A DNA stretch of 63,571 bases, from contig NCAP01000034.1 in NCBI GenBank assembly GCA_002255495.1, positions 1-63,571 of the forward strand. The letters run 5' to 3'. Below the pieces are notes generated by a model, which had not been told where the DNA came from, did not search any database, and was given only the letters and a program-made list of their open reading frames with translations. How positions within the stretch are numbered: position 1 is the stretch's first letter; every line of letters starts with the position of its first letter. This stretch comes from Rhodospirillales bacterium 20-60-12 (GTDB lineage Bacteria > Pseudomonadota > Alphaproteobacteria > Acetobacterales > Acetobacteraceae). The translations under genes were made by a program, and so were the position numbers. Of the stretch, positions 28,363 through 57,638 are shown piece by piece.

Positions 28363-28476
28363 ATTGAGTTCGTAGACTTATATAATTTCAGGTGTAGTCG
28401 CTTGGCGCTAGCTAAACCAACGAAATTGATCCACAGCAAATGACCAGAGCGTGTCGTTGTTAAACGATCACGCTCC
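28363..28476. repeat. Family-2 palindromic element, diverged copy
   Basis: This stretch aligns with 36050-36158. Shared landmarks are an AGGTGNAGTCG block, the GCTAAACCAA block and GAAATTGAT, followed by a closing stem GAGCGTG...CACGCTC (28447-28475). It sits alone in the roughly 370-base gap between the NlpC/P60-like gene and the CHRD remnant. I see no gene in that gap; a 73-codon open frame there is created by the repeat itself. Confidence 0.7.
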
Positions 28477-32294: not shown

Positions 32295-32319
32295 CCAGGA
32301 TCAGGGCGATGATGGCGGC

Positions 32320-32628
32320 AAGCAAGATCAGGGGGCGTCGCCCCCCGAACCCCCGACTAAGGGCGCGGCCCCTGGAGTGTTTTTCACTCGATGAAAAACG
32401 CTCCAGCTCTATTTTGGCGAGCAAATTCATTCACATGAACAGAACCTCTGGTTCAATTTAGGTGAATTTTGCTCTAGAACCCTTGAGTCTGGTTTCTGAG
32501 CGGCGGGGGCCAGCACGCGCGCGTCACGATCAAAGCCCCCCGCCGCTCAGAAACCAGATTATTGGATTCCAAAGGCTCAGCCTTCGGTGGGGTCCAGGGG
32601 CAAAGCCCCTGGCCTTGCCTGCCTCCGC
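32320..32628 (-). repeat. Family-1 mosaic palindromic element, copy C (interrupted)
   Basis: Read on the minus strand it has the same order of stems as copies A (37268) and B (57413): stem 1 (32596-32613 region, arms AGGGGC/GCCCCT), stem 2 (CCAAAGGCT/AGCCTTCGG), and the long central stem. The central arms are 32488-32510 and 32535-32558, 23 paired bases with one bulge. The two end stems lie near 32328-32375. A family-2 palindrome (32374-32476) is inserted between the central stem and the end stems. The whole element fills the gap between pgsA and mobB; no gene is visible in that gap. Confidence 0.8.
32374..32476 (-). repeat. Family-2 palindromic element nested inside copy C
   Basis: It has two stems. 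The first is GGAGTGTTTTTCA/TGAAAAACGCTCC (32374-32404, one wobble). The second is bounded by GAGCAAA and TTTGCTC (32419-32474) with a long inner stem around TTCA...TGAA. The flank CTATTTTGGCGAGCAA is shared with the element after the porin gene. Confidence 0.75.
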
Positions 32629-34820: not shown

Positions 34821-35984
34821 ATGGTTAAGTTAAAAGGACGGCTACTGGGATTCGGCGTTGTAGCCGGCGTGTCATTGATGGCGATGCATGCTGCGTATGC
34901 GTTCAATGGCCCATCGCAAATCCAGATCGACGGCGGCCCGCTCGGCCCGCTGCAAATCAGCGGCGGCGTGGACGGTTATTTCTATGGCCTGTCCGGCACC
35001 GGTGACAGCTTCAATCCCGGCCTGCTCGGCACCAACAAATCGCTCGGCGCCGATGTCGCCAACGCCCTGATCGAAATTCAGAAAAGCTCCGGCACGCTGC
35101 AATTCACCATCGAAGTCGGCAGCAATGGCGGCGCCGTCTCGCTCGGCACGAAACCCGGCCAAACCTCGATCACCACTTTCACAACCGGCCCGCTTTATGC
35201 CGGCTACATCACCATCGCCCCGCCGAACTCGCCGGTCACCGTCTCGATCGGCCAGCTCGGCTCGCTCGAAGGCTATGAATCGGGCGTCGAGTGGAACAAC
35301 GCCAACCAGCTCACCACCGACATCTTCGCGGTGCAGAACTCGCAAAGCCGCGGCGTCTCGCTCGCTTATACCCAAGGCCCGGTCTCCGCGACCGTGACCT
35401 TCGGTGACGGCTTCGACACCGGCGTCTTCAACTTCCTGCAATTCCTCGGCACCTACACCTTCAACGCCACCAACAATCTGAACATCTACGCCGCCGGCAA
35501 CCTCGGCAAAACCGGCCCGCTGGCCTATGCCTACGGCGGCAACAACACCACCAGCTACGGTGCGAACTACGTCAACTCGAACATGATCGGCGCCTTCTAC
35601 AGCTACACCATGGGCAATCTGAACATCGTCCCCGAAGTGCAGTATGTGTATGCCAAAGCCGACCAATCGGTTGGCCTGTCGAAATTCTCCAGCAATTTCG
35701 GCGCCGCCGTCTTTGCCGACTACGCCTTCGGCACCTCGCCTTACTCGATCGGCGCCTGGGCTGAATATTTCTCGTCCAACGGCCCGGATTTCTGGTTCAT
35801 CGCCCCCAAAGCCACCGGCGAAGGCATCTCCGTGTCCCCCACCTATCAATACAAGGACATTTTCGCCCGCGCCGATCTCGGCCTGATCCATATCTCCAAC
35901 GTGCCATACGGCGCGCGCTATGGCTCCGATGGCCGTGGCAGCAACCAGTTCACCGGCCTGCTCGAAGCCGGCTTGCTGTTCTAG
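34821..35984 (+). CDS. Outer-membrane porin (BBP2-like beta-barrel)
   Basis: This is a 387-residue barrel protein with a signal peptide (MVKLKGRLLGFGVVAGVSLM to AYA, residue 27). Alternating hydrophobic strands rich in Gly, Asn, Ser and Tyr follow (NNLNIYAAGNLGKTGPLAYA), and the protein ends in phenylalanine (LLEAGLLF), the usual barrel-assembly signal. A strong AAGGAGG lies eight bases before the ATG, and a long 229-base upstream region fits a highly expressed gene; no confident -35/-10 pair was identified there. It likely allows diffusion of small solutes. A palindromic repeat begins at the stop codon. Confidence 0.88.
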   Translation: MVKLKGRLLGFGVVAGVSLMAMHAAYAFNGPSQIQIDGGPLGPLQISGGVDGYFYGLSGTGDSFNPGLLGTNKSLGADVANALIEIQKSSGTLQFTIEVGSNGGAVSLGTKPGQTSITTFTTGPLYAGYITIAPPNSPVTVSIGQLGSLEGYESGVEWNNANQLTTDIFAVQNSQSRGVSLAYTQGPVSATVTFGDGFDTGVFNFLQFLGTYTFNATNNLNIYAAGNLGKTGPLAYAYGGNNTTSYGANYVNSNMIGAFYSYTMGNLNIVPEVQYVYAKADQSVGLSKFSSNFGAAVFADYAFGTSPYSIGAWAEYFSSNGPDFWFIAPKATGEGISVSPTYQYKDIFARADLGLIHISNVPYGARYGSDGRGSNQFTGLLEAGLLF

Positions 35985-36158
35985 AGCAACATCCGATCAG
36001 GTTGAATCGTAGAGTCAACCTGATCGGATAAAGTTGCTCGCCAAAATATAAGCTAGATCAATATTGCTTTAGGTGGAGTCGGTTGACTCCAGCTAAACCA
36101 ATGAAATTGATCGACAAAATCAACATAGAGCGTTTCCGATTGAGCGGAAAACGCTCTA
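35984..36158 (+). repeat. Family-2 palindromic element after the porin gene
   Basis: The first stem is GAGCAAC (35984-35990) pairing with GTTGCTC (36033-36039), and inside it ATCCGATCAGGTTGA (35991-36005) pairs perfectly with TCAACCTGATCGGAT (36015-36029). After a linker with the GGAGTCGGTTGACTCC palindrome comes a second stem, AGAGCGTTTCCG (36127-36138) with CGGAAAACGCTCT (36145-36157). It starts at the last base of the porin stop and may also stabilise or end that mRNA. Related copies lie at 28363 and 32374. Confidence 0.8.
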
Positions 36159-36173
36159 ACAAGCAACGCCTCA

Positions 36174-37213: not shown

Positions 37214-37267
37214 GTTATCCCCTGCCCCTGAAATCCGTGAACGCGAACGCGCAACGATGAGTGAAGG

Positions 37268-37464: not shown

Positions 37465-37504
37465 GCTTACTTCACTCACCGTTCCGCATCCACATTCACC
37501 GCTA

Positions 37505-56667: not shown

Positions 56668-57390
56668 ATGGCACGCATTGCTCTAGTTACCGGCGGCACA
56701 CGCGGCATTGGTGCTGCCATCAGCGTCGGGCTGAAAAACGCCGGACGCCACGTTATCGCAACCTATGCCGGCAACGAAGCCGCGGCAGCTTCTTTCTCGA
56801 AAGAAACCGGCATCGAAACAGTGCGCTTTGATGCCGGCGATTACGATCAATGTGCCACCGCCGTGGCCGCCGTTGCGGCCAATCACGGCCCGGTTGAAAT
56901 CCTGGTCAATAATGCCGGCATCACTCGAGATACCACCATCGCCAAAATGAGCCGCGATATGTGGGACGCGGTGATCGATACCAATCTCGGCTCCTGCTTC
57001 AACCTGTCCAAATCATGCTTCGATGGCATGCGCGCGGGAAAATTCGGCCGTATCGTCAATATCGGCTCGATCAACGGCCAGGCCGGGCAATATGGCCAGG
57101 TGAATTATGCCGCCGCCAAATCCGGCATCCATGGCTTCACCAAAGCCCTCGCCCAGGAAGGTGCGCGCTTTGGTATCACCGTCAATGCGATCGCACCGGG
57201 CTATGTCGATACCGAAATGGTGCGCGCCGTGCCGGCCGACGTGCTGGAAAAAATCATCGCCCGCATCCCGCGCGGACGCCTGGGCACCGCCGAAGATATC
57301 GCCCGCGGTGTCGTCTTCCTCACCTCTGACAATGCCGACTTCATCACCGGTTCAACCCTGTCCATCAACGGCGGCCAACATATGTATTGA
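56668..57390 (+). CDS. phaB: Acetoacetyl-CoA reductase (PhaB/PhbB)
   Basis: PhaB is the NADPH-dependent SDR that makes (R)-3-hydroxybutyryl-CoA for polyhydroxybutyrate. The cofactor loop ALVTGGTRGIGAAISVGL is at the N-terminus. The active-site block NIGSINGQAGQYGQVNYAAA with KSGIHGFTKALAQEGA and the end STLSINGGQHMY resemble PhaB more than FabG. The ATG at 56668 has GGGAGGA nine bases upstream; the product has 240 residues. No PHA synthase is in the window, so FabG-type use cannot be fully excluded. Confidence 0.88.
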   Translation: MARIALVTGGTRGIGAAISVGLKNAGRHVIATYAGNEAAAASFSKETGIETVRFDAGDYDQCATAVAAVAANHGPVEILVNNAGITRDTTIAKMSRDMWDAVIDTNLGSCFNLSKSCFDGMRAGKFGRIVNIGSINGQAGQYGQVNYAAAKSGIHGFTKALAQEGARFGITVNAIAPGYVDTEMVRAVPADVLEKIIARIPRGRLGTAEDIARGVVFLTSDNADFITGSTLSINGGQHMY

Positions 57391-57412
57391 TGCGGGGTTG
57401 AGATTGGCAAGC

Positions 57413-57607
57413 AAGGCCAAGGGGCTTTGCCCCTTGGAACCCCACCAAAGGCTAAGCCTTTGGAAACTTTGATTCTGGCTCTGGCCGAAAGGGGGCTGAG
57501 CATGCTGGTTCAAACAACGCGATTGGCCCCCTTTCGGCCAGAGCCGGCTCCCAAGGTCCAGGGGATTATCCCCTGGCGGGGGTTCAGGGGGCAGGGCCCC
57601 CTGATCT
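57413..57607 (+). repeat. Family-1 mosaic palindromic element, copy B
   Basis: It has the same five-stem order as copy A. Stem 1 is CCAAGGGGC/GCCCCTTGG (57417-57437 region); stem 2 is CCAAAGGC/GCCTTTGG (57444-57462). The central stem is a perfect 20-bp inverted repeat (57477-57496 with 57526-57545) and again has a 29-base loop. Stem 4 is CAGGGG-ATTAT-CCCCTG (57559-57575 region), and stem 5 is CAGGGGGC/GCCCCCTG (near 57585-57603). It fills the gap between phaB and the EamA gene. Confidence 0.88.
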
Positions 57608-57638
57608 TACTCACCACCCCACCTCCCGCATTACTGTC

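Follow-up and report, generated by a model that had tools for sequence, protein, structure and literature searches.

When both arms of a DNA hairpin change in step, does this reflect selection on the fold or a mutation process that copies one arm into the other? This long-standing question is raised by positions 57413–57607 (copy B) of the window, that is, the whole stretch of 63,571 nucleotides analyzed here. A first-pass annotation had described B and a second copy, A, as sharing five hairpins in the same order, with perfect central arms of 20 bp (B) and 21 bp (A) around 29-base loops and with matched changes in stems 1 and 4, and had attributed such changes either to selection on the fold or to a copy mechanism that keeps the arms matched. 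The sequence confirms the positions, the hairpin order, the arm and loop lengths and the quoted changes. Of the two explanations we favor the copy mechanism, with some fold selection possible, because unique flanks are inverted at many loci, many double changes are transversions, single-step intermediates are few and the stems show no clear excess of G-T over A-C.

The element is a DNA repeat of about 200 bases with five nested hairpins (HP1–HP5), located between genes at about 40 places in this Acetobacteraceae genome. In copies A and B its parts are arranged as AAGYAAGG, HP1, a CCCC linker, HP2, the long HP3, HP4, a GGGG linker, HP5 and CCTTRCTT, of which the inverted termini are an addition to the first description. 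The whole is approximately its own reverse complement, a nested palindrome, and genome searches match it on both strands. It consists of two inverted “end units” (AAGYAAGG, HP1, the CCCC linker and HP2) flanking the long central hairpin. The central segment first described as a loop does have a length of 29 nt, but its sequence (GAGCAnnCTGTTTnAAACAGnnTGCTC in many copies) is palindromic too, in worn form, and extends the central palindrome. Copy B is bordered on the left by an acetoacetyl-CoA-reductase-like gene, which ends at 57390, and on the right by a transporter-like gene, from 57639; both are on the plus strand and were named by inspection of their translations. The features are compiled in Table 1.

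Table 1. Features of the element in the window.
Feature	Position	Strand	Remarks
Left inverted terminus of B, AAGCAAGG	57409..57416	+	Seen in the sequence; AAGYAAGG recurs across copies and genera
HP1, stem 9 bp	57417..57437	+	Helix 1: 97.9% paired, 5 pairs changed on both sides
HP2, stem 8 bp	57445..57463	+	Helix 2: 7 pairs changed on both sides
HP3, central; 20-bp perfect arms (57477–57496/57526–57545), 29-nt loop (worn palindrome)	57477..57545	+	Helix 3: 13 pairs changed on both sides
HP4, stem 7–8 bp	57558..57576	+	Helix 4
HP5, stem 8 bp	57585..57603	+	Helix 5
Right inverted terminus of B, CTTACT (AGTAAG on the minus strand)	57606..57611	-	Seen in the sequence
Left flank arm at B	57390..57407	+	Weakly complementary to 57614–57631; not significant by itself
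Right flank arm at B	57614..57631	+	Pairs with 57390–57407; not significant by itself
Copy A; 21-bp perfect central arms (37336–37356/37386–37406), 29-nt loop	37268..37464	+	Architecture as in B; neighbors murJ and trpS, both on the minus strand
Left flank arm at A	37237..37267	+	Inverted copy of 37470–37499; significant
Right flank arm at A	37470..37499	+	Inverted copy of 37237–37267
Copy C	32314..32626	-	Ends and core as in the other copies; a second repeat (CTAGAGC...-type) interrupts it

A covariance model built on the end unit (HP1, linker and HP2) was searched against the genome at E<=1e-3, and 82 end units were obtained, mostly in facing pairs that correspond to about 40–45 loci. The further copies that the first-pass annotation expected from such a search therefore exist, and its term “mosaic” is apt: full copies are 71–87% identical to B and combine different types of HP1, HP2, core and HP4/HP5. 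The copy counts are lower bounds, since draft assemblies break at the element; contigs L031, L036 and L042 terminate at or near the centre of its hairpins. These 82 units and the single-strand folding z scores of -8.1 for B and -14.2 for A with its flanks place the structure of both copies far from chance. No coding sequence was present between the paired ends in the copies inspected. Partial copies (L031, L032, L036, L038, L041 and L042) were considered as ends of a larger transposon and rejected as such: most of them run only as far as a contig end or the palindrome centre, the one in L041 is interrupted by a second repeat, and no transposase was seen.

Several single copies have features of their own. 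The HP4 loop at L039 (1376–1616) is enlarged by extra nested hairpins, and near position 1934 of L178 (genome G048) the AGTAAGG terminus apparently provides the upstream gene with its stop codon, TAA. The second repeat is short and palindromic, of the TCTAGAGC...GCTCTAG and GGTTTAGNTGGAGTC...AGCTAAAC types, and is found at 35975–36165, 28373–28435 and 32370–32480 of the window and at 1–200 of L041. Dozens of copies of it are present in the genome (94 matches over the two strands), and it interrupts copies of the main element; in L041 it is inserted at a TA in the HP2 loop, with TA on either side, and resembles a MITE of the Tc1/mariner type.

At E<=1e-7, 41 of 90 Acetobacteraceae genera, counting the present one, contain end units; the 74 genera sampled from other families of the class gave none. 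As far as sampled, the element is thus restricted to Acetobacteraceae. Cultured members of the family carry it too, for instance Neoroseomonas oryzicola, whose end units in L078 follow directly downstream of trpS. The plasmid and phage collections gave no match to it. The first-pass annotation knew no published name for the element, and we likewise found no Rfam family at the gathering score (at E<=1 there were only miRNA-like chance matches far below threshold) and no description of the architecture in the literature searched, a scope that leaves out most subscription journals.

The matched changes seen between A and B extend to the whole set. Among 27 aligned copies, with 51 pairs in five helices, 96.9% of the pairs are standard; the 1372 cells comprise 1308 Watson-Crick, 21 G·T, 16 A·C and 27 other combinations. 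Changes on both sides affect 36 pairs, compared with 15±2 in shuffles (0/500), and 166 cells, compared with 45±6 in shuffles (0/500) and 9–21 in slid controls. These results support the claim that such changes imply fold selection or arm-matching copying. Double changes include 113 transitions and 53 transversions. The rare intermediates and the lack of a clear wobble preference suit copying better than stepwise RNA compensation; by itself this substitution pattern is not decisive, because both strands may be transcribed. Covariation alone, even this strong, is no proof of a functional RNA.

The palindrome also runs on beyond the element, into locus-specific flanks, a feature absent from the first description. 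The unique DNA just outside the element forms an inverted repeat whose sequence is different at each locus. Each 50-nt left flank was scored against the reverse-complemented right flank of the same locus, and mismatched loci served as the null. The mean inverted score is 32.9, against 15.6 for flanks of different loci, and 19 of 29 loci lie above the 99th percentile; direct similarity in the same 50-nt windows is at chance (0/29 above the null). The inverted signal is absent at 50–100 nt and so ends about 50 nt out. In anchored alignments 17 of 30 loci exceed the 99th percentile and several matches extend 70–80 nt; long gapped alignments were set aside, as their scoring is too permissive. A minority of loci, B among them, have no significant flank repeat, and A passes. 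In a second genus (G048 and relatives) 25 of 63 loci are inverted and 0 of 63 direct, with orthologous loci of sister species counted separately and thus not all independent. With mirror symmetry in unique, locus-specific DNA, descent can be used to tell copying from selection. Flanks at different loci have no common ancestor, so their complementarity implies either that one side has been copied into the other or that the target was already an inverted repeat.

We consider it probable that fold-back template switching at the DNA level, rather than RNA selection alone, produced this pattern, because flanks that came to match independently at many loci require arm-to-arm copying. The single-stranded element would fold at the replication fork, and the growing strand would switch template inside the hairpin and copy one arm into the other; the arms would thereby stay complementary while their sequence drifts. 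Such switching could also invert the segment between the arms, and copying that overran the base of the palindrome would turn the unique flanks into inverted copies as well. Template switching between inverted-repeat arms is reported to homogenize the arms and invert spacers (PMC8604942), and to create and maintain hairpins (PMC8794818). We infer that template switching is the cause, in preference to other ways of copying one arm into the other, and the flanks were presumably made with or after insertion. More tentatively, the element, on arrival or by growth, may make an inverted duplication of about 50 nt of its target by fold-back copying; if so, inverted flanks replace the direct target repeat of ordinary transposons.

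The arm-copying pattern is seen both at the arms and at the unique flanks, and no copying event was itself observed. One genus has nine sequenced species, each with 81–144 end units; with so many copies in each genome, the element offers a natural assay of how palindromes grow, convert their arms and invert. Orthologous sites of G048, G164 and G170 nearly always share the element, and the sites are therefore old. Between L193 and L196 the HP2-HP3-HP4 block is reversed with HP1 and HP5 unmoved, and between L188 and L200 the two arms are exchanged with the direction of the core loop kept. These differences could represent in-place inversion, ectopic conversion from another copy, which can mimic inner inversions, or draft-assembly error; several of the assemblies are short-read drafts, which may scramble near-identical palindromes. 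The 60-bp perfect cores of G014 were not relied on, since perfect palindromes of 120 bp in such drafts may be artifacts of assembly. Sister species show 18 parallel changes that affect both flank arms, against about 8 expected under a uniform rate, an excess that rate variation could explain.

Three other readings were weighed; they partly overlap with the favored one, and our confidences in all four are not meant to sum to one. The first differs from fold-back switching mainly in timing: the copying would occur at insertion, when a strand that has copied the element would fold back on itself and use its flank as template for an inverted copy of about 50 nt, instead of a direct target repeat. 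It is consistent with the limit of the flank signal near 50 nt in two genera. At L152 the left arm contains the rplS stop and a Shine-Dalgarno-like GGGGAGG and the right arm is their inverse, and the unoccupied relative L169 has a single GGGGAGG before leuC. Against this, the mirrored stretch at L039 and L034 lies within the coding ends of both neighbors, which replacement explains better; at L039 it is a block of 16–17 bp within the 3' coding ends of convergent, unrelated ABC1 kinase and M3 peptidase genes. No recent insertion among the data allows the junctions to be read, and we regard duplication confined to the moment of insertion as rather unlikely.

The second reading places selection on RNA: the element would be part of transcripts, either at mRNA 3' ends or in the spacer of co-transcribed genes, and its hairpins, which would stabilize or terminate the message, would be kept intact by compensatory mutations. 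The strong covariation agrees with this, and so does the location of the copies: most lie no more than about 60 nt from a gene end, and few separate divergent genes (from crude gene calls with some strands mislabelled). Copy A with its flanks moreover has a computed fold of one hairpin of -191 kcal/mol, on the sense strand of murJ-trpS. Compensatory point changes could account for matched arms in sequence that descends from one ancestral element; such changes in a shared ancestor cannot, however, yield independent complementary flanks of 30–50 nt at many loci. G-T is hardly commoner than A-C in the stems, wobble-compatible mismatches in the flanks number about 54 sense and 56 antisense (a hand count on crude gene strands) and give no RNA signal, and B has no T-tract terminator. 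RNA selection as the source of the pattern is therefore improbable in our judgment; it may act as a second force beside copying.

In the third reading, also unlikely, a site-targeted MITE- or REP-like transposable element enters the loops of long inverted repeats that already existed, for example bidirectional terminators, and the flanks are the old targets. The inverted AAGYAAGG termini and the dispersal in the genome agree with it, and known insertion sequences target REP palindromes (PMC1525189). Many flanks match best about 15–40 nt out rather than innermost, as in an old loop; such poorly matched innermost positions would likewise result if the element had entered a hairpin loop already present, which counts against copying. 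Unoccupied intergenic inverted repeats of this strength are nevertheless almost absent: scores of at least 34 occur at about 4 of 29,784 background positions, compared with 16 of 31 element loci, and of three background sites inspected, two are hairpins of the second repeat and one is coding. Empty sites in relatives are also mostly without such inverted repeats. Of the rplS-leuC spacers in 30 Acetobacteraceae genera, about five carry a hairpin-ladder element and most others are short (a few tens of nucleotides) and without it, while some longer ones contain other hairpins. At 41 alphaproteobacterial murJ-trpS loci without the element, most inverted-repeat scores do not rise above the chance range; a few are moderate, and some of these come from spacers of several hundred nt. 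The flank repeats look derived; the compared relatives belong to other genera, so the repeat may predate the element in this lineage. The murJ-trpS spacers of L066, L073 and L075 hold unrelated long palindromic insertions (CACAGAGAACACAGAGG- and GGAGACGGAGAGACGGAG-type), and this spacer, the home of copy A, looks like an insertion hotspot. Direct target duplication was not found, and the REP-associated Y1 transposase (Y1_Tnp) is missing from this genome (94% complete) and from 35 of the 40 other element-bearing genera, being present in 8 of the 90 genera of the family. The reading as a RAYT-driven REP was rejected; no RAYT was found in this genome.

The element shares with the REP/BIME/REPIN sequences of the GTAG and CGTC superfamilies an extragenic position, dispersal in tens of copies, palindromic form, head-to-head inverted pairs and proximity to gene ends. 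In contrast to them, it has AAGYAAGG before HP1 and no GTAG or CGTC tag conserved at the hairpin feet in the alignments, and its hairpins number five, against one or two in REPs. According to PMC3733652, Acetobacteraceae lack CGTC repeats. Like bacterial MITEs, it is small and non-coding, with inverted termini (AAGYAAGG/CCTTRCTT) and many copies. Unlike them, it has no direct target-site duplication (0/29 and 0/63 in a test that duplications of 2–3 bp would escape), its flanks are inverted repeats, and no parent transposon was seen among the copies inspected. Some of the REPs predicted by RepRanger in Lichenicola cladoniae, which we take to be a member of Acetobacteraceae, could be this element; that survey gives 1,369 predicted REPs for the species, as hairpin counts and not as element architecture (PMC12306157). 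Copy B also differs from an intrinsic terminator, in lacking a GC-rich hairpin with a T-tract after it. The pattern also resembles that of quasipalindromes corrected by template switching, in which imperfect inverted repeats are perfected by fold-back copying and spacers are inverted; mutation at quasipalindromes is known to be limited by single-strand exonucleases. To our knowledge, such correction has been described for isolated hairpins, each as an individual mutation; in the present case the pattern recurs at many loci, in a nested element that is dispersed through the genome and in the unique DNA beside it.
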